From Bdellovibrio sp. ZAP7 (lineage in GTDB: Bacteria > Bdellovibrionota > UBA1018 > CAIMNF01), in NCBI GenBank assembly GCA_945874535.1, contig CAMCGZ010000005.1, positions 93,276-129,902 on the forward strand: a stretch of 36,627 nucleotides of DNA. The letters are read 5' to 3'. The notes under the pieces are model-generated. The model was not told the DNA's origin. It worked only from the letters and a program-made list of their open reading frames with translations, and did not search any database. A program made the translations under genes and the position numbers. Below, piece after piece: positions 18,973-36,627 of this stretch. The first letter of the stretch is position 1; every line of letters begins with the position of its first letter.

Positions 18973-19049
18973 GGGCCATTAGCTCAGCTGGTTAGAGCGG
19001 TCCGCTCATAACGGATTGGTCGCTGGTTCAAGTCCGGCATGGCCCACCA
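18973..19049 (+). tRNA. tRNA with CAU anticodon, tRNA-Ile2 (lysidine) type
   Basis: A complete 77-base cloverleaf. The acceptor GGGCCAT/ATGGCCC, D-stem GCTC/GAGC, anticodon stem GTCCG/CGGAT with loop CTCATAA (anticodon CAT), variable loop TGGTC and T-arm GCTGG-TTCAAGT-CCGGC are all paired, and CCA is encoded. The loop CTCATAA and the segment TTGGTCGCTGGTTCAAGTCC closely resemble E. coli ileX, so isoleucine after TilS lysidine modification is the likely identity; elongator Met is the alternative. Its 3' end is the left boundary of the AT-rich element. Confidence 0.93.
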
Positions 19050-20665
19050 AAAGTCAAGCTGGTCGAACACTCGACCGGTTTACATAAATGGGAGTTGGCA
19101 TAAACCAACTCCCTTTTTATTTTAGAGCGTCCCAATCCATAACCAATTTCAATTCGATCTGGAAAAATCTCAATCTTTTCAATCAAACTCGTCACAATTT
19201 TTTGTTTTTTAGCGGTGGTAAGACCACTGGCCTTTAAATCTCGTAAAACTTCCAACAACTTTTCGTAGCTGATGGCATTGGTTGGGATTTCCTTTTCCAA
19301 TTCCTCATCTTTGAGTTTCAGAATCTTCTCATCTAATTCCCGCTTTTCAATTTCTAGCTTTTCCATCTGTTTATAAATGGGTGCAGCCGAAACTTCCCTA
19401 GGAAGTTCGGCAAGCCTAAGCGTAAGAGCATCGGTTTGAGCGTTGATGGCATAGGTTTTATTCTTAAGCCGCTCAATTTCATGGGTGAAGTTGGTTTGAT
19501 TTTTCTTCTTCATGACCGCTGAAATTAATTCCTCGGACAAACTTCCACTAAGCACTTGTTCAATATCGTTCCAAACCATTTCCTCAGCTTTCTCGGCCGG
19601 AATCCTATGGGGATCACAGTTGTAGATTTTTTCAGCTAGGCCACTTTGGATTTTAGTTCTCCTTCCATGTTCATAGTAGGGATGCTTCTTATTCTTTCCA
19701 TGAGCAGACTTGCCCGACATTTTTTCACCACAAGTTCCGCAATAAATAACTTCCGTTAGAATAAAAGGAAAGCGACTATCGGTTTCTGGTTTCTTGGCAC
19801 AGTGATTCTTTGAAAGTTTCTCTTGCACTCGATTAAACATGACCTCATCAAGAATCGGCTCCCAGACGGCTTTCGCTTCTTTTTTACCGGCCTTGGTACT
19901 AAAAACCTTAATCCCAATATAGCTTTTACTGGTGAGCATGGTATGAAGAGTGTCGGTTTTAAAATGTCCTGCTCGCACCCATCCACTGCCTTCCATTTTC
20001 TTACGAAGACTAAAGCCATTTTCATTAAGCCATAAACACGCTGACGACAGCGTGCCTTGATCGAGGAATGCCTTGAAGGCAGTTTTAACCACTTCTGCTT
20101 CTTCGGGATGCACGTCAAGACTTCCCCGAGTGGCAGACAAGCGATAACCAAATGGAACAGCTCCACCATTATAAAGTCCACGCTCCGCTCGAATTTTGAA
20201 GCTGGCCGCAATTCTTTCTGAAGTAGTACGACGTTCAAATTCGGCGAAGTTGGCAAAACTTTTTAGCATGAGTTCACCCGAAGCGGTGGTGGTATCAAAA
20301 TATTCTCTGAGTGAATGGAGTTCGCAGCCAATAGTCTTGAACATATCCCACATCTGCTCAAAGTCTTTTGTACTTCGAGAAAGACGGGATAATTCCGTGA
20401 CCATGACTTGATTTACTTGTCCTTCACGAATCGCTTTTAAAAGCTTCTGAAGACCCGGTCGATTCATGTCCTTGGCCGATAATCCGGCATCGATGAATAC
20501 GCCTGCAATCTCGCAAGACCTGCCCATATCCTGCTGATAGCGGACGGTTTGACGCAATCGTTCCTCTTGGTTCTTAATTGAACCTTCGGGATTTTCAGCT
20601 TGTTCTTCGGTTGATACGCGGACGTAGAGTCCGATCTTTAAATGTCTAGATTCTGCTGGATTCAT
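19028..20665 (-). CDS. Large serine recombinase (integrase)
   Basis: 545 residues. The N-terminal resolvase domain (about 10-150) starts IGLYVRVSTEEQ with catalytic Ser18 and includes ELSRLSRSTKDFEQM and FAEFERRTTSERI. A recombinase DNA-binding domain (GGAVPFGYRL, about 175-275), a zinc ribbon (YCGTCGEKMSGK) and a long coiled coil (about 390-460) follow, the usual order for large serine integrases. It catalyses integration and excision through a Ser-DNA intermediate. The final residues GGPCRT are encoded antisense to the tRNA 3' end, so the natural stop may have been lost on insertion. It follows the 63-residue ORF by two bases. Confidence 0.95.
   Translation of the reverse strand: MNPAESRHLKIGLYVRVSTEEQAENPEGSIKNQEERLRQTVRYQQDMGRSCEIAGVFIDAGLSAKDMNRPGLQKLLKAIREGQVNQVMVTELSRLSRSTKDFEQMWDMFKTIGCELHSLREYFDTTTASGELMLKSFANFAEFERRTTSERIAASFKIRAERGLYNGGAVPFGYRLSATRGSLDVHPEEAEVVKTAFKAFLDQGTLSSACLWLNENGFSLRKKMEGSGWVRAGHFKTDTLHTMLTSKSYIGIKVFSTKAGKKEAKAVWEPILDEVMFNRVQEKLSKNHCAKKPETDSRFPFILTEVIYCGTCGEKMSGKSAHGKNKKHPYYEHGRRTKIQSGLAEKIYNCDPHRIPAEKAEEMVWNDIEQVLSGSLSEELISAVMKKKNQTNFTHEIERLKNKTYAINAQTDALTLRLAELPREVSAAPIYKQMEKLEIEKRELDEKILKLKDEELEKEIPTNAISYEKLLEVLRDLKASGLTTAKKQKIVTSLIEKIEIFPDRIEIGYGLGRSKIKRELVYANSHLCKPVECSTSLTFGGPCRT
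19090..19123 (+). terminator. Intrinsic terminator for the tRNA, inside the recombinase 3' end
   Basis: GGGAGTTGG and CCAACTCCC form a perfect nine-base stem with loop CATAAA, followed on the plus strand by TTTTTATTTT. It stands 40 bases past the tRNA and is antisense to the last codons of the recombinase. It probably ends tRNA transcription, or shields the integrase gene from readthrough out of the host side. Confidence 0.85.
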
Positions 20666-20667
20666 GT

Positions 20668-20859
20668 TTAGCCTGCCTTTCTTTGATCTTGTTCATCACA
20701 AAATTCAATTAATTCAGGTTCAACAGAACGGGTTTTATGAAGCTCGCAAAAAGCATCATAGAACAGTTCTGCTAATTCTTCAATCCGTCTTTTATAAAGT
20801 TCTTGGTCAATTTCGATAATCTTCTTCTCTGTTTTTACTGGGTTCCATTTCTGCTTCAT
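20668..20859 (-). CDS. Small charged protein upstream of the recombinase
   Basis: 63 residues, rich in Glu and Lys, mostly helical by composition, with no signal peptide. AAGGG precedes ATG 20859. It ends two bases before the recombinase start, and its final codons contain AAAGGCAGG, which can serve as the recombinase ribosome site, so the two are coupled. A role as a directionality or accessory factor of the recombinase is plausible by position only. I recognise no family. Confidence 0.6.
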   Translation of the reverse strand: MKQKWNPVKTEKKIIEIDQELYKRRIEELAELFYDAFCELHKTRSVEPELIEFCDEQDQRKAG

Positions 20860-21008
20860 TGATTGCCCTTAATTTTAATTCGGGTTTCTCAAATATTTTT
20901 TTCAATTGGTTCCTCATGTATTTATTCCCGTTTTTTTAGTTTTTATTTCCTCAAATATCTCTCAATTCACCTTCCTCATGCGCCCTAACTCTCATTTCAC
21001 ATACTCTT

Positions 21009-21073
21009 CCGCCGTAAGCACTGACCTCCTACCATCAACATCGTTGGAGGTGGGAGGTCAGTGGTGGAGGCGG
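21009..21073. repeat. Long inverted repeat, candidate oriT or replication origin
   Basis: The arms CACTGACCTCCTACC (21019-21033) and GGTGGGAGGTCAGTG (21049-21063) pair over 15 bases with one G-T wobble around a 15-base loop. Outside them CCGCC (21009-21013) and GGCGG (21069-21073) pair again. No T-run follows on either strand, so it is not a normal terminator. It is a GC-rich island in AT-rich DNA, between the relaxation-like gene and the recombinase operon. Confidence 0.6.
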
Positions 21074-21081
21074 CTTTTCCC

Positions 21082-21918
21082 TCAACTCGCATTATTTAAA
21101 ATAGGCGCGTGATTCTCTTTAGTTAGTTCTACTTTTGATTCATTCTTTTTTTCATCGAGGGTGCTCAGGTGGTGAGCAGTCACCTGAGCAGGTAAAGGTG
21201 TAAAGACTTCACCAATTTTTCTCAGAGGCTCAATGCTTATCAAGTTTGCTGTGAGTGGGTTTTTCATCACATCATCGAGGTAGGAATAAAAGATATTTGT
21301 TCCTTTCGCAAAATGGCGGCAATCATTCCAGACCTTATGAATCTGGTTCGTCATGGATTTGCGGGGGATAATGTACCATACACCTAAAAGATCATTGGCC
21401 TCTCGGTAGTGGCTCAGGACTTTTTTCAGTTTGGTTTCATTCTTCAATGTCAGTTCCATTTCTACAGCCACCGATTCCATTTTGCCTTTTACACAAGTGC
21501 TAATAAGCGCATCAGGAATCACCCGATCTTTCATTCCGCGAAGACCATACTTTCTAAACGCCATGGAGCGGATTTCATGTTCAGGTGTCCATGAGCGAGC
21601 AATGCCGCCTTCTTCAAGAAGCAATCGTAATGACAATAATTTGTAGTCATGCTCCAAAAGGTTTTTGCTCCAATGCCTTTTAGGTACGGAAACACTGACA
21701 CTTTCAGCTCCACGTTCTGTCACTGACCATAGCACTTCATGACTTGGAAGTGTTGCCACTCGGGTAATCAGTTTTTTATCTTCAAGCAAGCGTAGCCGTC
21801 TTAAAATGGTCGTTAGCGCAATTTCATTAAAGACAATTTTTGCAATCTGTTGGGTCGAAAGCATTCCATATTTGGAAAGCCTTCTAAAAAGTTCAAGGTC
21901 ACGTTGAGTCGTTTGCAT
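21082..21918 (-). CDS. Replication-relaxation-like winged-helix protein
   Basis: 278 residues. The first 75 form a winged helix (RDLELFRRLSKYGMLSTQQI, then RRLRLLEDKKLI and VTERGAE), as in the replication-relaxation family found on plasmids and integrative elements. The rest has the family-like pattern of a nuclease-fold-like body (HDYKLLSLRL, PDALISTCVKG, VAVEMELTLKNETKL), where E and K residues resemble a PD-(D/E)xK core, though I cannot prove activity. GGGGGA precedes ATG 21918. It follows the membrane coiled-coil gene by eight bases and probably forms an operon with it. Function in mobilisation or copy control is inferred from family and setting. Confidence 0.65.
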   Translation of the reverse strand: MQTTQRDLELFRRLSKYGMLSTQQIAKIVFNEIALTTILRRLRLLEDKKLITRVATLPSHEVLWSVTERGAESVSVSVPKRHWSKNLLEHDYKLLSLRLLLEEGGIARSWTPEHEIRSMAFRKYGLRGMKDRVIPDALISTCVKGKMESVAVEMELTLKNETKLKKVLSHYREANDLLGVWYIIPRKSMTNQIHKVWNDCRHFAKGTNIFYSYLDDVMKNPLTANLISIEPLRKIGEVFTPLPAQVTAHHLSTLDEKKNESKVELTKENHAPILNNAS

Positions 21919-21926
21919 GAATCCCC

Positions 21927-22364
21927 CTAAAGAAAATTCTTAAGCGCACGGCCAGTCACATCTTCTGCCGTACGCTCATACTGTTTCACTTTCTCAAGTA
22001 GGTTCTTTTCAATTTGTTCAAATTCTTTTTTCTCTCGTTGACGAGACTGTTCTGATTTCTGCAAATATTCTTGGAGCACTTCACGCTCCATTTGAGTTTT
22101 CTTTAAACTCGTCTGAGCAAATTGTAGATTCTCTTCAAGTGGCTTGATCGGCTTATTGACAAGTTTCTTCCCATAAATCACTCCACCATAAAACATCCAG
22201 CTAAACAGGCTCCACTTGCAACCCAACCGAATGAAAGGCCAGAGTGGGTTCGTAGGAAAGTTTCCTTTCAGTTTTAAAAATAAAACTAAAGAACCGTAGA
22301 AAAATACCGTCACGATCATCAAATAGTGGACGGGTTTAAGATCATTTGATTTTACTTCATCCAT
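21927..22364 (-). CDS. Membrane protein with cytoplasmic coiled coil
   Basis: 145 residues. Two hydrophobic segments (about 13-31 and 50-66) are followed by a charged heptad-rich region (about 75-135, with LQFAQTSLKKTQMEREVLQ). GGAGG stands upstream of ATG 22364. It is the first gene of a pair with the replication-relaxation-like gene. A partner role, tethering that protein at the membrane, would fit the arrangement but is inference. No named family is recognised. Confidence 0.6.
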   Translation of the reverse strand: MDEVKSNDLKPVHYLMIVTVFFYGSLVLFLKLKGNFPTNPLWPFIRLGCKWSLFSWMFYGGVIYGKKLVNKPIKPLEENLQFAQTSLKKTQMEREVLQEYLQKSEQSRQREKKEFEQIEKNLLEKVKQYERTAEDVTGRALKNFL

Positions 22365-22636
22365 GTTTTTCCTCCCTCTGGACGTAGTTCTCCCTGCACT
22401 GAAAATTCAGCTCAAAAGGTCATGCGCAAAAAGTTAGAATCAAATTGTTTAAGCAATCAAAAGGTCTTAGAATGAAAGGAACCTTCACGCTCCCTTCAAA
22501 GTTTTTTACCTTGTTATCAATGTCCTCCTTCGTCCTCACCACAAAATTGTGATGAATCTTTCCTTAGATCACAAACGAGGTATTGAAGTCATGGGACGGA
22601 TAGTTAAATTGATGGGTGCTCAAACTTTGGGATAGA
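22365..22636. other. AT-rich intergenic stretch
   Basis: No convincing gene. It must contain the promoter of the membrane coiled-coil gene and the end of the toxin transcript. CACAA/TTGTG forms a tiny dyad near 22540-22551. A 27-codon plus-strand frame (22552-22635) has no ribosome site and is not called. Confidence 0.5.
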
Positions 22637-22975
22637 TTAATTCAAATCTAAAACCGTCTTTAAACAAGAATCAACATTGGCCATGTCGGTAATCGTTAGT
22701 TGAACAAGCTTTCTTGTGAGACAAGTTTTCTCAATCGTAAAAATAGAGGCGCAACGGATAATTGTAGGCTTTTTCAGGTTAATAAGAACGTCTTCTGAGG
22801 GGTTAGTTGGTTTGTTTTTACCACTTGAGTTTTGAAGCGAAGTTAGTTTGACGACATTAATATCTAACAAGTTCGGAGCTTGATTTCGTAGATTATTGCT
22901 CACAATCAAAAGAGGGCGAGGCTTTTGTTCTGGATCGTTAGGCCACACTCCTAACCAAATTTCTCCTCTCATCAT
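22637..22975 (-). CDS. MazF/PemK-family toxin
   Basis: 112 residues. It begins MMRGEIWLGVWPND, then KPRPLLIVSNN, the conserved beta strands of the PemK/MazF fold, and continues VVKLTS and IRCASIFTIEK, which correspond to the later strands with the conserved Arg/Ser region. Such toxins are ribosome-independent endoribonucleases that cut mRNA at short sites. Its ATG overlaps the last base of the antitoxin stop codon, the usual antitoxin-first order. It probably stabilises the element. Confidence 0.85.
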   Translation of the reverse strand: MMRGEIWLGVWPNDPEQKPRPLLIVSNNLRNQAPNLLDINVVKLTSLQNSSGKNKPTNPSEDVLINLKKPTIIRCASIFTIEKTCLTRKLVQLTITDMANVDSCLKTVLDLN

Positions 22976-23247
22976 TAGTAGAAATCCTCAACTTCATCTT
23001 CTGCATCAAAGGCTTTAGCAGACATCATCATCGTTGAAGAAAGGCCGTGTTTAGTTTTCTTACGGGGCTTCTCATTGGAGATTTCTTCATTAAAACGGAT
23101 GTAGTCCTGTTCCACCTTCATTTGGTGTTCTAATGTTAAACCCTTCAAGATAAGTTCATTAATTCGGCTACTCAATTGGCCTTTGGGAATACTTTCAAGA
23201 AAAGTCTCAATTTCTTCAGTTGGATAAAATGCTTTTTTAAGGTTCAT
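22975..23247 (-). CDS. Antitoxin of the MazF-like toxin, probable ribbon-helix-helix
   Basis: 90 residues. The N-terminal part (KKAFYPTEEIETFLESIPKG, then SSRINELILKGL) fits a ribbon-helix-helix DNA-binding domain. The C-terminal half is charged and ends in an acidic tail, as expected for toxin wrapping. It has a strong ribosome site (GGGGGTGA) before ATG 23247 and a good promoter 26 bases further up. It would neutralise the toxin and repress the operon. Identification rests on position and fold pattern, not on a clear family signature. Confidence 0.75.
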   Translation of the reverse strand: MNLKKAFYPTEEIETFLESIPKGQLSSRINELILKGLTLEHQMKVEQDYIRFNEEISNEKPRKKTKHGLSSTMMMSAKAFDAEDEVEDFY

Positions 23248-23272
23248 AAATCACCCCCATTCTTCAGCTATC

Positions 23273-23301
23273 ATTGTATCCCTTGTCGTCATTTTTGTAA
23301 A
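23273..23301 (-). promoter_or_regulatory. Sigma70-type promoter of the toxin-antitoxin operon
   Basis: On the minus strand TTTACA and TACAAT are separated by exactly 17 bases and lie just upstream of the antitoxin gene. The surrounding AT-rich sequence is the likely operator region, although no clean palindrome stands out. Confidence 0.7.
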
Positions 23302-23501
23302 CAAAATTAGATATAAATAAATCTACAAATATGGATACTAAAAAGGGGTCAAATTTATCTATATCTGTCTGCAATATGACCAGTTTTTAGTCACTTGACT
23401 AGCCTTAGTTCACTAAAGGCCATAAACATTATTTTAAGTATTTGTAATTATTGGTTATTTACCGAGAGTACTTGGCTCAATTCATGCTGAATTGGATTCA
23501 T

Positions 23502-24266
23502 ATGATACAGCTGCCGAACCTTCATATTGTGGCTTTAGCAATTCTCAGCTTTACGCTGAATAGTCCCTCTTTTGCCATCGTTGGCGGAAAAATTCTTACT
23601 TCCAGCGATGATCTTGCCAAGCGTACTGTCGTGGTTGCAAAAATGCCTACAAATGCAACTCGAGCTGACTACGATTTATATGGCCTGTGTTCAGGTGTTC
23701 TCATTTCTCCTAATAAGGTTCTTACGGCTGCACATTGTGTTGCTTACGAAGCACCTGATTCGATTCGAGTTGGTTTTACCATCACTACAGAAGAAAAAAA
23801 TATAAACTCATACATTCAAGGTAAAGAAATCCTCATTCATCCTTCTTATAACTCTGAAAACAGTATGAATGACCTTGCTATTATTGAAATCGTAAAAGTG
23901 GCTCCCAATGATTACAAGACGACACCAATTATTAGCAATCTCATTGAGGTTAAAAAAAGTGATCAGTTAATACTTTCAGGTTATGGAATTAATGATCCAA
24001 AGACCGGCGATGATGGAATTTTAAAGTCCATTGAGATGTCTCCATATCAAATAAGTCTAATTACAAAAGAACTCATATTTAAAAACAACGGTTATGGAAG
24101 CTGCAAGGGAGACTCTGGTGGCCCAGCTTTTCTAAGGGTTGAGGGAAAACTTTTTATTGCTGGCATAACAAGTCACGGTGAGCAGGGTTACAAGTGTGGC
24201 CAAGGATACTCATATTATTCCGATCTACGGAAATTTTCTAAATGGATACGGAGCTTGAACAAATGA
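23502..24266 (+). CDS. Secreted S1-family (chymotrypsin-fold) serine protease
   Basis: 254 residues from ATG 23502, which gives a standard signal peptide; ATG 23484 and the longer frame are alternatives. The mature enzyme would begin IVGG right after the signal sequence (SPSFA), so signal peptidase itself may create the active N-terminus without a propeptide. The catalytic triad is His78 (TAAHC), Asp124 (NDLAI) and Ser205 (GDSGGP). The S1-pocket base, six residues before the catalytic Ser, is Gly rather than the Asp of trypsin, so cleavage after Arg/Lys is doubtful and a chymotrypsin- or elastase-like preference is more likely. The stop overlaps the next gene's start. Confidence 0.92.
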   Translation: MIQLPNLHIVALAILSFTLNSPSFAIVGGKILTSSDDLAKRTVVVAKMPTNATRADYDLYGLCSGVLISPNKVLTAAHCVAYEAPDSIRVGFTITTEEKNINSYIQGKEILIHPSYNSENSMNDLAIIEIVKVAPNDYKTTPIISNLIEVKKSDQLILSGYGINDPKTGDDGILKSIEMSPYQISLITKELIFKNNGYGSCKGDSGGPAFLRVEGKLFIAGITSHGEQGYKCGQGYSYYSDLRKFSKWIRSLNK

Positions 24267-25102
24267 GAAGTGCTTTAATACTTGTAGGTTTTCTTTTAAA
24301 TGGATTTTCTTATGCTAAAGATTGTGATCCAAATGTTCTTGTCCTTGATTCTGTCCAGGAGCAGATGAACCTCACGTTTGACAACAATTACTATCTGAAA
24401 AAATCACTTTCCCAAGAAAAATTCTGTAAAGTCATTTCCAGGCTTTCAACACTCTTTCCAAGTCAAAGTGGAATTCCAATAAAATTTAGCGCACTCTGGG
24501 ATCTGCCCGATCCCAATGCACTTGCTGACTTTAGTAACTATGAAAATGCATACACGGTAGACGTGTACGGTGGCCTACTAAATCTCAATCATTTCACTGA
24601 AGGTGCACTCGTAGCAATTACATGTCATGAATTGGGCCATATCATGGGCGGTACAAAAAAATCCAGACGACTTTGGGATGGGAAAAAGCAACCACTAAAT
24701 ACGGCCGAAGGTTTTGCTGATTACTTTGCCTCTCATGTATGTATGAAAAAGTATTATTCCAATGTTAGCGATTTTGAAGCTCCAAGAAATGAAAGAATTG
24801 GCCTTCAATGTGAAAAAGAAGCTAACAAGGCACTTTGCTTAAATGTTTTAAATGCTGCATTCGATGACTTCTATTCCATATCTAAGGGTGAAGCAAACCT
24901 TGATTTGCCTTCCAAAGCGATTGCTGCAAATACATCTTATGCTCCTCAAAATCATCCGGCAGCCAACTGTCGCTTTGATATAATGATCGCTGGCTATTTA
25001 TGCTCTAATGTCGATCGGCCTTGCGGTTTCAATAAGAATGACCAGTACACAGGCAAAGGTAACCAAAATGCGTTACCTCCAAGATGTTTCTTCAAACCAT
25101 AA
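24263..25102 (+). CDS. Secreted HExxH metalloprotease
   Basis: 279 residues from ATG 24263, which overlaps the serine protease stop (ATGA). A signal peptide (MRSALILVGFLLNGFSYA) comes first. HELGH at 122-126 gives two zinc ligands and the catalytic Glu. AEGFADYFA (Glu149) follows 23 residues later and fits a gluzincin-type third ligand. The C-terminal part has several cysteines (CEKE, CLNV, CRFD, CSNV, CGFN, CFFKP) for disulfides. I cannot assign a MEROPS family. Coupling to the serine protease implies joint secretion and perhaps a shared substrate or an activation cascade. Confidence 0.8.
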   Translation: MRSALILVGFLLNGFSYAKDCDPNVLVLDSVQEQMNLTFDNNYYLKKSLSQEKFCKVISRLSTLFPSQSGIPIKFSALWDLPDPNALADFSNYENAYTVDVYGGLLNLNHFTEGALVAITCHELGHIMGGTKKSRRLWDGKKQPLNTAEGFADYFASHVCMKKYYSNVSDFEAPRNERIGLQCEKEANKALCLNVLNAAFDDFYSISKGEANLDLPSKAIAANTSYAPQNHPAANCRFDIMIAGYLCSNVDRPCGFNKNDQYTGKGNQNALPPRCFFKP

Positions 25103-25110
25103 AAAGTTCA

Positions 25111-25290
25111 TTATTTCTTTTTGTGGTTACTGGCGCTTGGTAAGGTCATTGCCTTTGGCCACTTACTCGCCTGAGAATCCATAATGAGCTGAATTTGCGC
25201 CTTCCTGACCTGAAACAATATCCATGGCAGATTTCCCGAAGCAACGGCTAGAAAAGCAAATGTGTAAGCAATAGAGATGAGTTTACTCAC
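25111..25290 (-). CDS. Small membrane protein, GTG start
   Basis: 59 residues. GTG 25290 overlaps the last eight bases of the helix-turn-helix gene, so translation would be coupled. One hydrophobic helix (about 5-27, ISIAYTFAFLAVASG through WILF) is followed by a basic, polar tail ending in NHKKK. No family is recognised. Its end is nine bases from the end of the metalloprotease gene, on the opposite strand. Confidence 0.5.
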   Translation of the reverse strand: MSKLISIAYTFAFLAVASGNLPWILFQVRKAQIQLIMDSQASKWPKAMTLPSASNHKKK

Positions 25291-25501
25291 GACGGACTCC
25301 TTTTTTGTTGCCCGTCCGGTCTAGGCCGTACAGGTAGGTTTTAATCGTCGTCTGGCTGACCCCAAAATGGAGAGCTAGATCAACATTTGTCCACCCGTGT
25401 AATGCCTTAAGAGTTGCGAGCTTCTTTTGGTCTAAGTCTAAGACTTCCCGTTTCCATTGAACCGAGTGTGATCTTTTAACAATCACAGGGTGTTCAACCA
25501 C
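25283..25501 (-). CDS. Small helix-turn-helix protein
   Basis: 72 residues from GTG 25501, supported by GGAGGT nine bases upstream. Residues of about 25-60 (DQKKLATLKALHGWTNVDLA, then HFGVSQTTIKTYL) form a resolvase- or MarR/sigma-like helix-turn-helix. The frame is open for eight codons upstream of the GTG and reads GGGRPK, a motif seen in recombinase and transposase DNA-binding tails. It may be a regulator or excision factor of the element. Its ribosome site coincides with the proposed right attachment site. Confidence 0.6.
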   Translation of the reverse strand: MVEHPVIVKRSHSVQWKREVLDLDQKKLATLKALHGWTNVDLALHFGVSQTTIKTYLYGLDRTGNKKGVRRE

Positions 25502-25514
25502 TTTAGGGCGACCT

Positions 25515-26254: not shown

Positions 26255-27253
26255 TCAGCGGTGTTTGCAGCAGATCTTTCCGTCGACGGGGCCGAAGACG
26301 GGAACCGTTGTCACGCCGCAAACGCTACCGAAAGACATGCTTCCGCCTGCGCGAGAGCAAAGATCAGATGGATTCACGCAGCACTTGTACCCGGAATTGC
26401 TTCCTGCCGCTGATTTGCAACGAGTGTATTCACTGGCCGTGGCTGGGCTCGTAGCCAGCACCGCAAAAGGGTAAGGGATCAGCACATTCGGTGAGAGGCA
26501 TGCTGGAGTCGGCGTCGGAGTAGCCGTTGGCCTCGGAGTTGGCGTAGGAGTCGGCTTGGGTGTATCAGTGGGCCGTGGGGTCACGGTCGGAGTCGGCTTG
26601 GGTGTTTCGGTGGGCCTTGGAGTCACGGTCGGGCTCGGAGTCGGCCGTGGTGTTTCTGTGGGCCTTGGAGTCACGGTCGGTTTGGGAGTGGGGGTCGGCT
26701 CTTGTCCACACCCGGGAATTCCCGGTGCGCAGCACTTCGGATTGCTGGCGCTCCAAACACAAGAAATACTCTGGTTGACGCTATTGCAACGTTGGCGAGC
26801 AAAAGGAATACCTTGTGGATGCCCGAAATTGAGTACGGGAAGTGAACAGTCATACCCCGGATTTGCGCCCGGAATCGCTTTACAGCAGACTCCGCTCGGG
26901 AATGGGGTGGGCGTTGCCACAGGGGCGACGCAGCAACGGTAACTTTTCGGATCCCGTGTGGCGGAGGCCTCTTTTTGGCACCTTTTGTAATTCACCGTAT
27001 TTTCTGGAAGTAGGGACTGGAAAGGGAAAGGAACCAGCGTGGAAGGGGGACGACATGCCCGCGAAACCGCGACAGCCCGGAGCAATCCCGGTGAAGCGCG
27101 CAGGGGTTGAAGAGCTGATCCCGACTGAATCGATACTGAGGGTCGTGCCCGATTCTCGGAAACTTGGGCCGAGGCCGGTAACTGGCCGGATAAGAACGTC
27201 AGCGCGAAAAATCCGATCAGTACCCTAAAGGAAGAAATTCTTTTTGCCACCAT
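26255..27253 (-). CDS. Secreted Cys-rich protein with Pro/Thr-repeat linker (paralogue A)
   Basis: 332 residues. AGGAGG precedes ATG 27253 and a signal peptide follows ([18 protein letters not shown], ending ASAQ). A short N-terminal region is followed by a Cys-rich module (about 120-190: [17 protein letters not shown], then [20 protein letters not shown] and CCAPGIPGC). A linker of some 55 residues of PTxTPRPT repeats leads to a second Cys-rich module ending GKICCKHR. The Pro/Thr linker is of the kind that joins domains of secreted proteins. It is a clear paralogue of the gene at 27684-28499. No known domain is recognised. Confidence 0.8.
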
Positions 27254-27274
27254 GAGCCTCCTGGACAGAAGTTA

Positions 27275-27304
27275 ATTCTAGCGTGCAACAGAAGGGGCTT
27301 GCAA
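27275..27304 (-). promoter_or_regulatory. Sigma70-type promoter of paralogue A
   Basis: On the minus strand TTGCAA, 18 bases, TAGAAT, ending 21 bases before the start codon. The match is reasonable. Confidence 0.5.
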
Positions 27305-27341
27305 GGAGGGATCTGAATAAATGAGGGTGTCAAACCTGACC

Positions 27342-27384
27342 TATAATAGTGCCCGTACTTAGTGACTGAAAGGAGGCGTGAATG
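27342..27384 (+). promoter_or_regulatory. Plus-strand TATAAT and perfect Shine-Dalgarno
   Basis: TATAAT at 27342-27347 and AAAGGAGG at 27369-27376 stand before ATG 27382, which opens a 62-codon frame. The -35 region is poor and the frame is antisense to the ArgH-tail-like ORF, so the signals may be chance or may drive an antisense transcript. Confidence 0.25.
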
Positions 27385-27395
27385 GGTCCGCGTGA

Positions 27396-27551
27396 TCAAA
27401 GCGAAGAGAGGGTCTTCAGAGCCAACTGGACCTGGTATTCCGGGAATCCTCGGATGACCCTGTCCATTCGTTCGCGGATCTCTCGGGTGCAGAGGTTTCC
27501 GATGCTGCCTTCATGTGTGTGTTTGAGTTCGTCCGGAAGAGCCGAGACCAC
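27396..27551 (-). pseudogene. Short ORF matching the ArgH C-terminal tail
   Basis: From a GTG at 27551 the frame gives 51 residues. PDELKHTHEGSIGNLCTRE aligns with PEQLKHTHEGSMGRLCTGE near the end of the argH gene in this window, and similarity continues through RERM..VI.GFP. About 60 percent of 45 residues agree, while codon third positions differ widely. The same frame is open back to the stop of paralogue B and encodes a hydrophobic, signal-like stretch before the GTG, but contains no ATG and no ribosome site. It may be an old argH remnant or a functional small protein. I list it as a pseudogene for lack of a good start. Confidence 0.5.
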
Positions 27552-27628
27552 AGGTGGGTTCGCCAGTTGAAAGAGAACAAAAAAACCGCTGAGAGCGAGA
27601 AAATGAAAGACTGGGGGCAGTCTTCGAT

Positions 27629-27660
27629 AAAAAAAGCCCCGGTCAAACCTGACCGGGGCT
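27629..27660 (-). terminator. Intrinsic terminator of paralogue B
   Basis: AGCCCCGGTCA and TGACCGGGGCT pair over 11 bases around a short loop, followed by seven Ts on the minus strand. It lies 24 bases after the stop codon at 27684. Confidence 0.93.
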
Positions 27661-27683
27661 CCTTCAGTCTGAATGAAACTGAA

Positions 27684-28499
27684 TTACCTGCTTTTACAAC
27701 AAATCTTGCCCTGAACAGGACCGAAAATCGGGGACATCGGTCTCGGGCAAGTGCTTCCATTGATCATGACGCCTCCCTTGCGTTTGCAGCTGAGTACGGG
27801 ATCCACGCAACAAACATAGGCGGAATTGGAGCCTGCCGCCTTTTTGCAGTTCGCATACTCCTCGGCCAGTTCCGGTTGGGTCGCCAGGGCACTGAAGGGG
27901 AATGGAATTCCCACTTGAGGAGGAGAGCAAGCCGGTGTCGGAGAAGGAGTGGGACTTGAGCATCCCGGGATTCCTGGGGCACAACACTCTTTGTTCTGAT
28001 TGCTCCACATGCAGGATGCGCCACCGTTGACCTGCACACAGCGCTGGTAGGCGAACGAGATGCCCTGCGGGTGTCCGAAGTTCAACAAAGGAAGTGAACA
28101 GTTATAGCCCGGATTGGCATTCGGTTTGGCCTTACAGCAGGCTCCGCTCGGAAACGGAGAAGGACGTGGCGTCTCCGTTGGACGGGGTGTAGGACTCGCG
28201 CTGGCCGCGCCTTTCCAACGGCAACAGTCATTGCCGGCAATATTCGCGGGGCAACCTGTATTCCAGTTCGGGGCGCTCCCTGGAATCGCCGTATTGTACA
28301 AGCACTCTCCGACCGTGTTCAGATAGCATTGGTTCACCGGAACATTGTTGGCGGAAGAACTCGAAACATTATAGGGGGGGGTCTGGTTGGGATTCGCACA
28401 CGTCACGGATGCGTGAGCCGATGACAAAACCCATGAAGAACCCACCAACCCGAACAAGACCCACCCGCTTAAAACCAGATTTTTGATTCTCGACCTCAC
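27684..28499 (-). CDS. Secreted Cys-rich protein with Pro/Thr linkers (paralogue B)
   Basis: 271 residues from GTG 28499. The start is decided by GGAGGG five bases upstream and by the signal peptide that follows (hydrophobic LVLSGWVLFGLVG, ending AHAS). It shares with its paralogue the module [46 protein letters not shown] and the C-terminal module with KKAAGSNSAYVCCVDP and GKICCKSR. Its Pro/Thr linkers are much shorter, and its N-terminal region has additional Cys pairs. Expected to be extracellular or surface-located with many disulfides. Function unknown. Confidence 0.8.
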   Translation of the reverse strand: MRSRIKNLVLSGWVLFGLVGSSWVLSSAHASVTCANPNQTPPYNVSSSSANNVPVNQCYLNTVGECLYNTAIPGSAPNWNTGCPANIAGNDCCRWKGAASASPTPRPTETPRPSPFPSGACCKAKPNANPGYNCSLPLLNFGHPQGISFAYQRCVQVNGGASCMWSNQNKECCAPGIPGCSSPTPSPTPACSPPQVGIPFPFSALATQPELAEEYANCKKAAGSNSAYVCCVDPVLSCKRKGGVMINGSTCPRPMSPIFGPVQGKICCKSR

Positions 28500-28696: not shown

Positions 28697-30058
28697 TCAG
28701 GCCTGGCGCTGAGGGTTGGATTGGACCAGGGCTTGAAGGGCGTCCGCCACTTTCTTGCCGGGAAATCCTTCGATCACACTCAGCATCCGGTTGCGGACCT
28801 CACCCGTACAGAGTCGGCCCATGCTTCCCTCGTGGGTGTGCTTCAGTTGTTCGGGGCGGGCCTCGAATCGACCCTCCTCTATTTCCTGGCCCACCTCGCG
28901 GTAAGCATCCCGAAAGGTCATTCCTGCGAGGACCCGACGATTCACTTCTTCGACACTGAACAAATAGCGGTATTTGGAGTCATCGAGCAAGTCCGGTTTC
29001 ACCTCGATCCGGGACAGCATCAAGACCGCCATGTCCATGCAACTCTGAAGTTCGTTGAAGGCGGGAAACAGGTGTTCCTTCAGGATTTGGAGATCCCGGT
29101 GGTACCCTGATGGAAGGTTGGTTGTCATCATCAGGATCTCGTTCGGAAGCGCCTTCAATCGATTGCACCTGGACCGGATCAGCTCGAAAACATCCGGATT
29201 CTTCTTATGAGGCATGATCGAAGAACCGGTGGTCAGCTCGGCAGGGAAACCGATGAAGTCGAAATTCTGGTTCAGAAACAAGCAGGCATCCATCGACAGG
29301 CGGGCCAGAGTATCGGCCAAGTTCGCCAAGGCCATGGCAGTGATCCGTTCGGACTTTCCCCTGCCCATCTGGGCATAGACGACATTGTAAGACAGCCCTG
29401 AAAAACCGAGAAGTTCTGTTGTCCGGGAACGGTTGATCGGAAAAGAAGAACCGAATCCGGCAGCAGATCCTAGAGGATTCCGATCTACCACATCGAATGC
29501 TCCGCGGAGTGTGACCAGGTCGTCCACCAGGCTTTCGGCGTAAGCTCCGAACCACAGTCCGAAGGATGAGGGCATGGCAAGCTGGAGGTGGGTATACCCG
29601 GGCATCAGGCGGTCTTGGTACCGTTCACTCTGCTCCTGAAGCAGGTCAAAGAGCCGGCCGGTGCTTTGCACTGTCTTCAGGATTTCATCCCGTAAAAAAA
29701 GGCGCAGGTCGACCAGAACCTGATCGTTTCGGGAGCGGGCCATGTGGATCTTCTTCCCGGCATCACCGAATCTCCGGGTGAGCAGGAGCTCCACTTGCGA
29801 GTGAACGTCCTCCACGCCTTCTTCCAGAGTGAACGTCCCTGCCAGGATCTCCGCATGGATTTCACGGAGTCCTTGAACCAGGATCTGAGCATCTGACTCG
29901 GGCAGAAGACCGGCTTCGGAGAGCATGGTCACATGTGCGATCGATCCGAGCACGTCAAAAGGGGCCAGATGGAGGTCCCAGATCCGATCCTGGCCCACGG
30001 TGAAGGCTTCGACCGCGGAGGTGAGGGCATTCTCCTGCTTTTCCCAAAGTTTTTTCAT
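28697..30058 (-). CDS. argH: Argininosuccinate lyase
   Basis: 453 residues. It splits argininosuccinate into arginine and fumarate, the last step of the pathway. The fumarase-superfamily signature GSSIMPHKKNPDVFE is present, as are the catalytic-region segments SRNDQ and TPGYTHLQ-like PGYTHLQLAMP. The tail contains LKHTHEGSMGRLCTGE, a C-terminal motif that I associate with Bacteroidota-type ArgH. The start overlaps the argE stop by four bases (ATGA). It is the last gene of the arginine operon. A similar tail is found again at 27399-27539. Confidence 0.96.
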   Translation of the reverse strand: MKKLWEKQENALTSAVEAFTVGQDRIWDLHLAPFDVLGSIAHVTMLSEAGLLPESDAQILVQGLREIHAEILAGTFTLEEGVEDVHSQVELLLTRRFGDAGKKIHMARSRNDQVLVDLRLFLRDEILKTVQSTGRLFDLLQEQSERYQDRLMPGYTHLQLAMPSSFGLWFGAYAESLVDDLVTLRGAFDVVDRNPLGSAAGFGSSFPINRSRTTELLGFSGLSYNVVYAQMGRGKSERITAMALANLADTLARLSMDACLFLNQNFDFIGFPAELTTGSSIMPHKKNPDVFELIRSRCNRLKALPNEILMMTTNLPSGYHRDLQILKEHLFPAFNELQSCMDMAVLMLSRIEVKPDLLDDSKYRYLFSVEEVNRRVLAGMTFRDAYREVGQEIEEGRFEARPEQLKHTHEGSMGRLCTGEVRNRMLSVIEGFPGKKVADALQALVQSNPQRQA

Positions 30059-31119
30059 AAAATCACCTGCGACAGAAGTTCAGTGTAAATCCGGATTCCC
30101 TGTTCAATTTCAGAAATGAGAACAAATTCATCCGCCGTGTGACTCCGCGCCGATTCACCCGGTCCGATTTTGAGAGCCGGAAACGGCATGAGTGCTTTGT
30201 CGGAAGTGGTGGGAGAGCCGTAGTGGCTGAGTCCCAGATTCAAGCCGGCGCGCACTAGAGGGTGTTCGAGACTGATGGAGGTGGATTTGATCCGGACGCT
30301 TCTCGGTTTGACCTCGCTCTTCACATGAGAGCGGATGGTCTCGAGTACTGCATCGAAGTCGTAAAGCTCGTTGACCCGGACGTCCACCGTGAATTGGCAT
30401 TCGCGAGGGACCACATTGTGCTGGCTCCCTGAGTTCAGAATGGTGACAGTCATTTTGTTCGGCCCGAGCAGGGGCGAGACATGTTCGAATTTGAAGTCCT
30501 TGAACCAGTGGATGTCATCGAGCGCTTTGTAGATAGCATTGTCGCCCTCGTCCCGGGCGGCATGGCCGGACTTCCCGATCATGGTACAGTCGAGAACCAG
30601 CAATCCTTTCTCGGCCACAGCCATCTGCATCCCGGTGGGTTCTCCCACTAGTGCGCAGTCGATGGAGGGAATTCCATCATTTTTGAATCGGGGAAGCAGG
30701 GCCTCGATTCCATTCACACCGGAAATCTCCTCCTCGGCAGTCGGAGCAAAAACAAGGTTGTATTTCAAGTCGGTGCGGGTATCGAAGTGACGGAATGCCG
30801 CTGCCATGGCAACCACCGAGGCGCCTGCGTCATTGCTCCCCAGTCCGTAAAGGCGCCCATCCCGTTCGGTCGGAGAAAAAGGATCGAGCGTGTACCCTGA
30901 GTTGGGTTTTACCGTATCGATATGGGAATTCAGAAGGATGGTCGGTTTAGCAGGATCGAAGTGTCGGTTCTTGAAGAACAGATTGTTTTTGAATCGCACC
31001 GGGCTCAGCCCGAGAAGGCTGAAGCGCTCTTCGAGCCTTAAGGCGAGGACCTCCTCATCCCGACTGAAAGACGGAGTCGAAATCATCAGCTTCAGGAGTT
31101 CGATCGAATCATCAAGCAT
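30055..31119 (-). CDS. argE: ArgE-type M20 deacylase (N-acyl-citrulline/ornithine)
   Basis: 354 residues from ATG 31119, chosen because MLDDSIELLKLMISTPSFSRDE is the normal family N-terminus; it overlaps the argB end by eight bases. Metal-binding M20 motifs are present: LNSHIDTVKP, GSNDAGASVVAM, the catalytic PTAEEEISG, VGEPTG, and a late His in ARSHTADEFV. In E. coli ArgE removes acetyl from acetylornithine. With the ArgF' type of transcarbamylase in this operon it more likely acts on N-acyl-citrulline. The acyl group (acetyl or succinyl) is not known. Confidence 0.88.
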   Translation of the reverse strand: MLDDSIELLKLMISTPSFSRDEEVLALRLEERFSLLGLSPVRFKNNLFFKNRHFDPAKPTILLNSHIDTVKPNSGYTLDPFSPTERDGRLYGLGSNDAGASVVAMAAAFRHFDTRTDLKYNLVFAPTAEEEISGVNGIEALLPRFKNDGIPSIDCALVGEPTGMQMAVAEKGLLVLDCTMIGKSGHAARDEGDNAIYKALDDIHWFKDFKFEHVSPLLGPNKMTVTILNSGSQHNVVPRECQFTVDVRVNELYDFDAVLETIRSHVKSEVKPRSVRIKSTSISLEHPLVRAGLNLGLSHYGSPTTSDKALMPFPALKIGPGESARSHTADEFVLISEIEQGIRIYTELLSQVIL

Positions 31120-31903
31120 TGCGATAAAGCCTCGTTCCGGTACTGCGTTCGATGAGACGGGGCAGGACCTCCGCCTTTCCGAGAATGACTTCACTCACCC
31201 CCGCCTCGATCGCCCGGAAAGCGTTCTCGAGTTTTGGAATCATGCCGTCGGTGATTTTGCCCTGGGCCCGGAGCTCGGCATAGCGTCCCGGTGTCAGGTC
31301 CTTCACCAAGGTGCTCTCATCGGAGACATCGAGGAGAACGCCTTCTTTTTCGAAAGTGAACAGCAAACGAACTTGGAATGCGTGAGCCAGGGCTTTAGCC
31401 ACCTCATAAGCGATCGTATCGGCGTTGGTATTCAGCAAGGAGCCCTTTCCGTCATGCGAGAGGGGGGCGAATACGGGTGTGGTGCCTGTTTGAATCAAGG
31501 TGTTGAGTGCCTTTGAATTGACACCGGTGATGTCGCCTACGAATCCGTAGTCCACGGGAACGGGGTTCCGCTTCATCGCACGGATGAGGTCGAAGTCAGC
31601 ACCGGAGACCCCCACGGCCGATAATCCACGGGCTTGGAGGCCTGCCACAATCGATTTGTTGATCCAACCGCCGTAGACCATGATGGCAATGCGTAGGGTT
31701 TCTTGATCGGTCACCCGTCGACCTTGGACCATGGTTTGAGGGATCCCGAGTTTTCCGGCGAGGTCGGTGGCGAGTTTGCCTCCACCATGAATCAGGACCT
31801 TCGGTCCATCGAGGCGCGCGAAATGGTCCAGAACGGTATTCAACGCCTGCGGGTCATTGATGATATTGCCGCCGATTTTGACCACATTGACAGTCTGATC
31901 CAT
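31112..31903 (-). CDS. argB: N-acylglutamate kinase
   Basis: 263 residues from ATG 31903, whose A is the last base of the argF' stop (TGATG), indicating coupled translation. It belongs to the amino acid kinase family: VVKIGGN near the N-terminus, HGGGKLATDL for phosphate binding, NTNADTIAYEVA, and KITDGMIPKLENA near the end. It phosphorylates the gamma-carboxyl of N-acetyl- or N-succinylglutamate. Absence of a fused GNAT domain distinguishes it from the xanthomonad arrangement; the acyltransferase is a separate gene at the head of the operon. Confidence 0.93.
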   Translation of the reverse strand: MDQTVNVVKIGGNIINDPQALNTVLDHFARLDGPKVLIHGGGKLATDLAGKLGIPQTMVQGRRVTDQETLRIAIMVYGGWINKSIVAGLQARGLSAVGVSGADFDLIRAMKRNPVPVDYGFVGDITGVNSKALNTLIQTGTTPVFAPLSHDGKGSLLNTNADTIAYEVAKALAHAFQVRLLFTFEKEGVLLDVSDESTLVKDLTPGRYAELRAQGKITDGMIPKLENAFRAIEAGVSEVILGKAEVLPRLIERSTGTRLYRNA

Positions 31904-32856
31904 CAGTAATTCCTCAGAATCTCCGAGATCACGGATTGTGCTGACCAGACGCGATTGGTGGCCAAGGGAGTGAGGAGGCTGCGTGGCCCGTCCAGGATCT
32001 CGTCCGAGAGCTCGACGTTGCGTCGAAGTGGAAGGCAGTGCATGACCTTCGATTCGGGAGCACGGGACAGATGTTTCTCGGTCAGCATCCATTCGGGATA
32101 GTGTCCGAGCACTTTGCCGTATTCGGAAACCGAGCTCCAGTTTTTCACATAAACAAAATCGGCGCCCTCCAAGGCTTCGTCTTGCCGGTCAGTGAAGGTG
32201 GCCCCTTTGGCAAAAGTGGGAGAGAGTTCGTAGCCCTTCGGGGCCGTGACCACGAAGTCGGCTTTTCCCCAGGCCAGCATCCATTCGGTGAAGGAGTTCG
32301 CGACACAGTGGGGGATTGGCTTGATGTGTGGGGCCCAAGTGAGGACCACCTTGGGTTTCCGTGCTTGACTGAAGTTCTCGGTGATGGTGATCAGGTCTGC
32401 CAAGGACTGAAGCGGGTGGCAAGTTGCACTTTCGAGGCTGATGATTGGAATTCCCGCATGCCGGATGAATGCCCGGATCACCTGATCGCTTTCATCTTCC
32501 TCGCGGCTGGTCAGTTTCGGAAAGGTTCTGACGCAAAGGATGTCAAAGTAGTTGCCGAGGATGGGAGCCGCATCCCGGATGTGCTCGACCGTGGCGCCAT
32601 TCATCATGGCGCCATCTTGGAACTCAAGGGCCCAGCCCTCCGATCCCGCATTGAGGACAATGGGGTCGAGCCCGAGATTCTTGGCTGCGATCTGAGTTGA
32701 AAGCCGGGTGCGCATGCTCGGATTGAAGAACATGAGGCCGATCCGCTTGCCGCGGCCCAGTCCCTCGTCTTTCAATCGGTTGGCTTTGTATTCACGACCT
32801 TTCCGGATGAGGGCATCGATGTCTTTCACATCTTGGACACGAATGAATTGTTTCAT
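31903..32856 (-). CDS. argF': N-acylornithine carbamoyltransferase (ArgF' type)
   Basis: 317 residues. It has the carbamoyl-phosphate loop NPSMRTRLSTQ and the HPLQSLADL segment but lacks the ornithine-enzyme SMG loop. Instead it has GWALEFQDG and HCLPLRRNVE, as in the N-acetyl- and N-succinylornithine transcarbamylases of Xanthomonas and Bacteroides. As I recall them, residue 90 (Bacteroides numbering) is Pro in the succinyl enzyme and the equivalent is Glu in the acetyl enzyme; here it is Val. The product would be N-acyl-citrulline. It overlaps argD by four bases. Substrate acyl group is open. Confidence 0.9.
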   Translation of the reverse strand: MKQFIRVQDVKDIDALIRKGREYKANRLKDEGLGRGKRIGLMFFNPSMRTRLSTQIAAKNLGLDPIVLNAGSEGWALEFQDGAMMNGATVEHIRDAAPILGNYFDILCVRTFPKLTSREEDESDQVIRAFIRHAGIPIISLESATCHPLQSLADLITITENFSQARKPKVVLTWAPHIKPIPHCVANSFTEWMLAWGKADFVVTAPKGYELSPTFAKGATFTDRQDEALEGADFVYVKNWSSVSEYGKVLGHYPEWMLTEKHLSRAPESKVMHCLPLRRNVELSDEILDGPRSLLTPLATNRVWSAQSVISEILRNY

Positions 32857-33983
32857 TTCAAGAGCGTCCTCGTGGCCTCGAGGAATTCCTCCATCTCGGC
32901 CTTGCTGATGTTCAAAGCCGGAAGAAGGCGTACGGTATTGGGTTTGGCCTCACCCGTGAAGATCCGGTGCTCCTCGAGGAGCCGCTTCCGGAAATCTTTT
33001 TTGCTGTCAGGGAGGTCGAATCCGATCATGAGGCCCATGCCTCGCAAGCCGAGGACCCCGGGAATCTTCTTGAGTTCACCCATGAGCCACTCGCCCTTTT
33101 CGCGGGCGGCAGGAATCAGGTGATCCCGCTCCATCACCTCGAGAACGGCCAGGGCTGCGGCACAAGCGAGGGGGTTTCCTCCGAATGTGGTGCCGAGCAT
33201 GCCGTAAGAGGCCTTGAATTTGGGATGGATCAGGACTCCGCCGATCGGGAAACCGTTACCCATGCCTTTGGCGGTGGAATAAAGGTCCGCCTCGACGCCG
33301 GAGTGGTCATGAGCGAAAAAGTGCCCGCTCCTTCCGTAGCCGCATTGTACCGAGTCGGCAATGTAAACGGATCCGTGCTGGTCGCAAAGGTCGCGAACGG
33401 CTTTCAGGAACTCAGGGCTTGCCACATGAATACCGCCCACCCCTTGGATGCCCTCGAGAATGATCGCAGCGGTCTGATTTCCTTCGCGGGTCATGTGTTC
33501 CCGCAGTGTGACGGGGTCATTGAAGGGCAAAAACACCACATTCGGAGTTTCATTCACCGGAGCGACAATCGAGGGATTGTCGGTGGCGGCCACTGCCAGA
33601 GACGTCCGTCCGTGGAAGGCTTTTTTGAAGGCGACGATTTTTTTGCGGCCAGTGTGAAACGAAGCGAGTTTGAGAGCGTTCTCGTTGGCCTCGGCACCAC
33701 TGTTGCAGAGGAAGAGCCGGTAATCCGGTTTGCCGCTCACCTTTCCAAGACGTTCGGCCAGCTCCTCTTGAATGGGGAGTTTGATGGAATTGGAATAGAA
33801 TGCGATCTTTGAGAGTTGCTCCTCGATCCGCTTCACCCAGTGAGGATGACGGTGTCCGATGCTGATGACCGCGTGGCCTCCGTAAAAGTCGAGGTAGGCA
33901 CGCCCTTCCGGATCGTAGACCCTTTGACCTTCGGCCCGCACGATCGTGACATCATTCAAAGGGTAAACGGGGAAGAGATTCAT
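32853..33983 (-). CDS. argD: N-acylornithine aminotransferase (PLP)
   Basis: 376 residues of class III aminotransferase. It begins FPVYPLNDVTIVRAEG with DFYGGHAVISIGH, as in Bacteroidota ArgD. NSGAEANENALK binds the cofactor phosphate, ADSVQCGYGR contains the PLP-pairing Asp, and STAKGMGNGFPIGG carries the Schiff-base Lys. It converts N-acylglutamate semialdehyde to N-acylornithine using glutamate. The start lies one base after the argC stop and the stop overlaps the argF' start. Confidence 0.95.
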   Translation of the reverse strand: MNLFPVYPLNDVTIVRAEGQRVYDPEGRAYLDFYGGHAVISIGHRHPHWVKRIEEQLSKIAFYSNSIKLPIQEELAERLGKVSGKPDYRLFLCNSGAEANENALKLASFHTGRKKIVAFKKAFHGRTSLAVAATDNPSIVAPVNETPNVVFLPFNDPVTLREHMTREGNQTAAIILEGIQGVGGIHVASPEFLKAVRDLCDQHGSVYIADSVQCGYGRSGHFFAHDHSGVEADLYSTAKGMGNGFPIGGVLIHPKFKASYGMLGTTFGGNPLACAAALAVLEVMERDHLIPAAREKGEWLMGELKKIPGVLGLRGMGLMIGFDLPDSKKDFRKRLLEEHRIFTGEAKPNTVRLLPALNISKAEMEEFLEATRTLLK

Positions 33984-33984
33984 C

Positions 33985-34977
33985 TCAGAAAGCCGATCCT
34001 TTCAGCATGAGTCCGGTGGTTTCAGGAAACCCGAAAAGCAGATTCAGGTTCTGTACAGCCTGGCCACTTGCGCCCTTGAGGAGGTTGTCGATCGCACAAT
34101 GGATGGCGAGCTTCGATCCGGACTTGTGGATTTCAATCTGTACTCGATTGGTATTCACGACTGCCTTCATGTCGATCGGCTGATCTGTGACGTGAATGAA
34201 GGGGTGTCCGTCATAGAAAGACCGGAAGTTCCGGAGCGCCTCCTCCTGTGACCAGGAGCAGGAGGTCTGCGCACTGATGAAGATCCCGCGAGTGAAGTCA
34301 CCGCGCCAAGGGATGAAAGAGACTGTTCCTTGAGCGCTCGGACCTTGAAGGGAGACCAGGCTTTCTTCGATCTCGTCGACGTGCTGGTGCTCGAGCGTTT
34401 TGTAGGCTTGAATATTATTGGAACGGAAACTGAAATGGCTGGTTTCGGAGAGTTTCTGGCCGGCACCGGTCGAACCGGTGATTCCGGTCACGGCCACATC
34501 GCCGAGGATTCCTGCTTTCGCAAGGGGCAGCAGTGCGAACTGGATGGCACTGGCGAAGCATCCCGGATTGGCAATGGCATCGGAAATCCGGATTTTTTCG
34601 CGATTGAGCTCCGGTAAGCCGTAAACAAAAGTTCTTTTGCCGAGTTTTGCATCGCCATGGAGGCGGAAATCATTTGAAAGGTCGATGAGGCGCACTGTTT
34701 GTGGCAAGTTCTCTTTTTCCAGGACTTTTCGAGTCTCGCCGTGGGGAAGGGTGAGAAATAGCGCCTGCAAGGAAGGGTCCTGCAAGTTCGCGGTTTCGAT
34801 GAAGTGGAGATCAGTGACCCCGCGTAAATCATCGTGAACAGAAGATACAGGTTTCCCCGCCTGACTCCGGCTTTGTGCGAACAGTATCCGCACACCGGGG
34901 TGGCCGAGGAGGAGACGCAACAGCTCTCCGCCCGTATAGCCTGCCGCTCCGATGATGCCGACGTTTACGGGTTCCAT
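33985..34977 (-). CDS. argC: N-acyl-gamma-glutamyl-phosphate reductase
   Basis: 330 residues from ATG 34977, which gives MEPVNVGIIGAAGYTGGELLRL with the Rossmann motif GAAGYTG at the expected position; the frame is open further upstream, inside argG. NPGCFASA contains the catalytic Cys (usually NPGCYPTA). It reduces N-acyl-glutamyl phosphate with NADPH to the semialdehyde. It overlaps the argG 3' end by 13 bases and is followed by argD after one base. Confidence 0.95.
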   Translation of the reverse strand: MEPVNVGIIGAAGYTGGELLRLLLGHPGVRILFAQSRSQAGKPVSSVHDDLRGVTDLHFIETANLQDPSLQALFLTLPHGETRKVLEKENLPQTVRLIDLSNDFRLHGDAKLGKRTFVYGLPELNREKIRISDAIANPGCFASAIQFALLPLAKAGILGDVAVTGITGSTGAGQKLSETSHFSFRSNNIQAYKTLEHQHVDEIEESLVSLQGPSAQGTVSFIPWRGDFTRGIFISAQTSCSWSQEEALRNFRSFYDGHPFIHVTDQPIDMKAVVNTNRVQIEIHKSGSKLAIHCAIDNLLKGASGQAVQNLNLLFGFPETTGLMLKGSAF

Positions 34978-36173: not shown

Positions 36174-36627
36174 TTGGGTTCGTTCTCCTGGGAGGATTTG
36201 GATGGACGTGTCGGGTCGAACAGCATCGCCGTACAGAGGCAGTTCTTCCGCCCCTTGCTGGTGAGGATTTCGAAGTTCACGCAAGATCTGCACCCGGCCC
36301 AGAACTCTTCATCGTCAGTGAGCTCGCTGTAGGTGACGGGGACGTAGCCGAGTTCGCTGTTCATTTTCATGACTGCCAAGCCGGTTGTCAGGCCGAAAAT
36401 TTTCGCGTTCGGGAACTTGGTGCGCGACAGATTGAAGATCCTGCGCTTGATCTGGGTGGCGACTCCGCTTTTTCTGAAAGCCGGAGCAACAATCAAACCT
36501 GAATTGGCCACGAACTGCTCATGACCCCAGGCTTCGATGTAACAGAAGCCGACCCATTCACCCTCGTCTGTGACGGCAATCACTGCCTTGCCTTCTCTCA
36601 TCTTCAGCGCAACATAGTCCGGACTCC
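36170..36627 (-). CDS. GNAT acyltransferase at the head of the arginine operon, 5' end outside window
   Basis: The frame is open to the window edge with SPDYVALKMREGKAVIAV, so the start lies beyond it. A GNAT core is visible: EWVGFCYIEAWG, SGLIVAPAFRKSGVATQI (acetyl-CoA loop, R-x-x-G-x-A form) and IFGLTTGLAVMKMNSELGY. The C-terminal part carries cysteines (AGCRSCVNFEIL, KNCLCTAMLFDP) that might bind a metal or act as a switch. Position next to argG and the lack of argA or argJ in the window suggest it makes the N-acylglutamate that starts the pathway. That role is inferred. Confidence 0.85.
   Translation of the reverse strand, partial: SPDYVALKMREGKAVIAVTDEGEWVGFCYIEAWGHEQFVANSGLIVAPAFRKSGVATQIKRRIFNLSRTKFPNAKIFGLTTGLAVMKMNSELGYVPVTYSELTDDEEFWAGCRSCVNFEILTSKGRKNCLCTAMLFDPTRPSKSSQENEPK

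Follow-up and report, generated by a model that had tools for sequence, protein, structure and literature searches.

Locus organization

The stretch of DNA analysed here (the window; 36,627 nucleotides of Bdellovibrio sp. ZAP7, contig CAMCGZ010000005.1, positions 93,276 to 129,902) holds an arginine operon (28697-36600), and the order on its minus strand is argH, geneA, an argH-like fragment, and geneB. The three genes are as follows.

28697..30058, minus strand: argH, intact, encoding argininosuccinate lyase (Lyase_1; Pfam PF00206, E 2e-42)
27684..28499, minus strand: geneA, encoding a Cys-rich, apparently secreted protein of unknown function (97% identical to G006:C45:16262-16720; not downstream of argH in G009)
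26255..27253, minus strand: geneB, also Cys-rich (60-75% amino acid identity to the G009 gene directly 3' of argH)

Two genomes of the same genus, G006 and G009, serve for comparison. The arginine operon of G009 is collinear with that of the window, and its argH is followed by a single geneB orthologue with no geneA between them; geneB is the native gene, originally adjoining argH. The G009 homologue of geneA is located in an unrelated place (C40), and neither G006 nor the window genome has a syntenic counterpart of that stretch by DNA search. The products of geneA and geneB are homologous to each other and both apparently secreted, neither belongs to a Pfam family, and Cys-rich proteins of their type were seen only in this genus among the genomes searched. 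The two proteins (26255-28499) contain Thr/Pro-rich linkers and repeated units, and the number of repeats varies between species.

The operon is patchy in the genus, with a clear argH in G000, G002, G003, G009, and G010 and no clear one in most other congeners. The hits of a genome contig scan with ArgH were for the most part argH genes of Bacteroidota (up to 67% identity), and among the fetched loci the window ArgH is of a type found mainly in Bacteroidota. A patchy operon with a Bacteroidota-like argH suggests horizontal spread or loss.

Composition of the frame between geneA and geneB

The minus-strand frame 27683-27396, which an earlier note on this sequence had singled out, translates to FSFIQTEGAPVRFDRGFFYRRLPPVFHFLALSGFFVLFQLANPPVVSALPDELKHTHEGSIGNLCTREIRERMDRVIRGFPEYQVQLALKTLSSL and ends ...FHFLALSGFFVLFQLANPPVVSALPDELKHTHEGSIGNLCTREIRERMDRVIRGFPEYQVQLALKTLSSL. 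It opens immediately past the stop codon of geneA (27684-27686), remains open through to 27396, and consists, as the note described, of an ArgH-like C-terminus behind a hydrophobic stretch ending in VVSA. The C-terminal part is about 60% identical in amino acids to the window's own ArgH tail over 42-43 residues (E 4e-12), so the likeness is not due to chance, and it carries the KHTHEGS.G.LC motif common to the argH genes of congeners and of the fetched loci. Identity between the two tails is 64, 80, and 29% at codon positions 1, 2, and 3, respectively, with most differences in the third position, and the divergence at synonymous positions that the note reported is therefore real. The fragment corresponds to the C-terminal 43 residues of argininosuccinate lyase, a member of the Lyase_1 superfamily; it includes no Lyase_1 domain and has no Pfam match. 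There is no usable start, again as noted earlier: no ATG occurs ahead of an internal one at 27467, and the only GTG (27551) lies within the hydrophobic stretch, upstream of which there is neither ATG nor GTG.

A single DNA search with the 288-bp interval split it into three pieces that differ in origin, which makes the frame a mosaic. Bases 1-75 match G006 downstream of geneA, bases 69-157 match the signal-peptide region of a G006 gene designated geneB' (99%), and bases 148-284 match the argH tail of G009 (78%). The pieces overlap by only 7 and 10 nt. These junctions are known from the assembled contig, and overlaps of 7 and 10 nt are much shorter than the k-mers usually used in assembly, which makes an assembly chimera less likely. 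The features of the interval and its surroundings, including the terminator that had been placed upstream of the detached tail, are listed below.

about 28697-28852, minus strand: last ~50 codons of argH, a probable incoming, non-native tail (from its divergence from G009)
27630..27665, minus strand: intrinsic terminator of geneA, inside the interval (RNA fold dG -29.4 kcal/mol, z -6.6, T-run; conserved in G006)
27609..27615: deletion junction (blastn segments overlapping by 7 nt; about 97 bp of G006 missing in the alignment with G006)
27527..27615, minus strand: remnant of the donor geneB' signal-peptide coding region (98.9% over 89 bp to G006:C45:15997-16085)
27527..27536: donor geneB' joined illegitimately to native argH (the G006 and G009 matches overlap by 10 nt, CCGGACGAAC)
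27396..27526, minus strand: probable displaced native argH 3' end, 43 codons and stop, a gene fragment (closer to the G009 ArgH tail than to the window's own)
27254..27395, minus strand: native argH-geneB spacer including the geneB upstream region (aligns with the G009 argH-geneX spacer)

Origin of the detached tail

The fragment shares 78% of its DNA and 73-75% of its amino acids with the G009 ArgH tail, vs 57-58% and 60%, respectively, with the ArgH tail of its own genome, and its greater nearness to G009 has a codon bootstrap of 0.9999. The G009 alignment continues past the stop codon and across the non-coding spacer up to geneB. In local alignment to the G009 argH-geneX spacer, the spacer after the fragment scores 70 (shuffles 26 +/- 4, reached by 0 of 1000), whereas that after the present argH scores 28 (shuffles 30 +/- 4), which is background. 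Since the fragment and its spacer both match G009 and the spacer of the present argH does not, these alignments identify the detached piece as the native argH end, and it appears to be the ancestral argH 3' end in its original place, not a copy. The ArgH of the window is 88% identical to that of G009 over 445 amino acids, dropping to about 51-55% in the tail, where DNA identity is 54-55%.

Of G009 argH, only the final 43 codons have a match in the fragment, behind which spacer and geneB are collinear, and the fragment has neither start codon nor RBS of its own. The frame is a recent pseudogene fragment that is probably under no selection of its own. The earlier idea of a truncated gene was right insofar as this is a gene fragment, but the piece is not a copy: it represents the native argH 3' end, and it is the present argH that has the incoming tail. 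The fragment has a dN/dS of about 0.2 vs G009, a value that mixes the time before and after detachment. The selection-like codon pattern arose in a functional argH to which the tail was then still joined, and the debris frame shows a selection signal because it inherited one from the intact gene. Reading the frame as an old sequence kept under selection was correct in that it is no decayed copy of the present argH, but the selection predates the detachment. A short frame can thus mimic a selected small protein, with a conserved motif, third-position divergence, and a signal-like leader, and yet be debris.

Origin of the leader and the insert

At its contig end, G006 carries geneA and the same terminator, followed by an intact geneB' with RBS and ATG, the product of which begins MVKRPFFHFLALSGFFVLFQLANPPVVSALPDEQ. 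The hydrophobic leader of the frame matches the signal-peptide region of this gene over the 89 bp listed above and is read in the same phase as MVKRPFFHFLALSGFFVLFQLANPPVVSALPDEQ; judged from this match, the leader derives from the genuine signal peptide of a different gene, namely geneB' in a G006-like relative. The window lacks about 97 bp that G006 has here: the spacer together with the RBS, the start codon, and the initial codons of geneB'. Identity to G006 is 97-99% in the insert and only about 70-84% in other (core) genes of the same contig, from which it follows that the insert has moved horizontally and recently. Because the arrangement is intact in G006 and scarred in the window, the window lineage is the recipient, and geneA was acquired with the insert.

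The G006 contig ends inside geneA, and neither argH nor an arg operon was found in the G006 assembly. As G006 thus offers no donor argH, we infer the left breakpoint as well as the derivation of the present tail from the donor. The ArgH scan of genome contigs did not show the donor, and when the present ArgH tail and geneA were searched for across the class, neither had a match beyond the genus. The present tail is further from G009 than a vertically inherited G006 orthologue should be, so the donor locus may be a mosaic in its own right or have a fast-evolving tail.

The gene order first suggested an internal tandem duplication of the argH 3' end together with a Cys-rich gene, the copies then diverging. 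The order argH, geneA, argH tail, geneB, with geneA homologous to geneB, is what such a duplication would leave. The fragment, however, is nearer to the ArgH of G009 than to that of its own genome, the spacer of its own argH is not homologous to the spacer that follows it, and geneA and the leader match G006 at 97-99% against the 70-84% background. A simple tandem duplication is very unlikely and was rejected on the nearness of the tail to G009 and the match of the insert to G006.

The earlier note had also proposed an unannotated small protein reusing an ArgH element. Such an exported protein, a signal peptide joined to an ArgH tail, would have to begin at a non-canonical start, e.g. the CTG at 27620. 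In its favour, no stop interrupts the frame between the end of geneA and 27396, the hydrophobic part goes back to an N-terminus that truly resembles a signal peptide, and the two parts are joined in phase. Openness, however, is expected neutrally (the stop-free probability of such a stretch is 0.84-0.91 at 1.5-3% divergence, counting substitutions only), the frame being open because the event is recent, and an in-phase joining is a one-in-three chance. Moreover, no ATG or GTG lies upstream of the hydrophobic stretch, the RBS and start seen in G006 have been deleted together with the first codons, and a strong terminator stands between geneA and the frame. A fused frame was also looked for in relatives and occurs in none of those searched. 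With neither a start nor, in the genomes searched, a homologue of the fusion, a selected small protein was rejected; that the frame encodes a functional one is extremely improbable. There is equally little chance that the fusion is translated now, from a non-canonical start, or was translated before the start was deleted, which would make it a small exported protein born from a recombination junction.

Proposed history

Very probably, then, the frame is not a gene but a recombination scar, in which the native argH tail was displaced by G006-like DNA. The ancestor would have had argH directly followed by geneB, the arrangement still found in G009. G006-like DNA with the argH 3' end, geneA, the terminator, and the start of geneB' would then have recombined into argH. 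Most likely homologous recombination inside argH made the left end; the argH of the window runs on without a break and keeps its frame. The right end was made by illegitimate joining at the microhomology-sized overlap, as the junction found there between donor geneB' and recipient argH shows. As an outcome, argH would have received a foreign tail with geneA added, and the last 43 native argH codons would have ended up, in frame by chance, after the ~33 opening codons of geneB'. A deletion of about 97 bp would have taken away the RBS and start of geneB', so that nothing would now initiate the fused frame.

The comparisons with G009 and G006 demonstrate the displacement of the native tail, the gain of geneA, and the loss of the geneB' start. 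The scar records a recent transfer of DNA from one bacterium to a related one and is, very probably, ordinary genome wear and no new protein. The locus shows legibly how an arginine operon gained a gene from another species, and both the donor-type and the recipient-type arrangements are known.

Comparison with known systems

Homology-facilitated illegitimate recombination (HFIR) has been described for transformable bacteria (Streptococcus pneumoniae, Acinetobacter baylyi, Pseudomonas stutzeri) and, at a low rate, in E. coli conjugation, and yields inserts of around 1 kb with 3-10 bp of micro-homology at the illegitimate end (PMC3240628). The scar resembles it in the insert size of about 1 kb, in the short micro-homology (3-10 bp) at one end, here the 10-nt overlap of donor and recipient matches at 27527-27536, and in the argH homology available at the other; it differs in that we infer the homologous end.

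A second parallel is the e14 prophage in E. coli icd, where incoming DNA supplies the 3' end of the gene and the displaced icd' pseudogene remains (PMC6379469). In both cases a housekeeping gene was given a new 3' end and the old one was left on the far side. This likeness in topology would fit a site-specific integrative element that entered the argH 3' end carrying a replacement tail (PMC6379469). Unlike e14, however, the insert in argH (about 1.3 kb) has no integrase and holds one small cargo gene, geneA; DNA identity between the two tails is just 57%, and they share no identical core repeat; and on the right it breaks off within a chromosomal gene of which G006 has an intact version. An element of this kind is highly improbable and was rejected for want of an integrase and identical att repeats.

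A putative mobile element in the window

A 6.5-kb insertion (19050-25514) lies elsewhere in the window, immediately following the tRNA-Met(CAT) gene at 18973-19049 on its 3' side, and is absent from G009 and G006. The features assigned to it are:

19028-20665: large serine recombinase
21082-21918: Replic_Relax-type protein
22637-23247: two-gene pair, toxin-antitoxin-like (by eye only)

Its other products are unknowns and one protein that looks trypsin-like (by eye only). Integration at a tRNA 3' end by a serine recombinase is less usual than by a tyrosine integrase. About 7 kb beyond its argH, G003 (L022 16449-18000) has relatives of the same recombinase (81%, at a contig end) and of the Replic_Relax protein (54%), which suggests a related mobile element in the genus.
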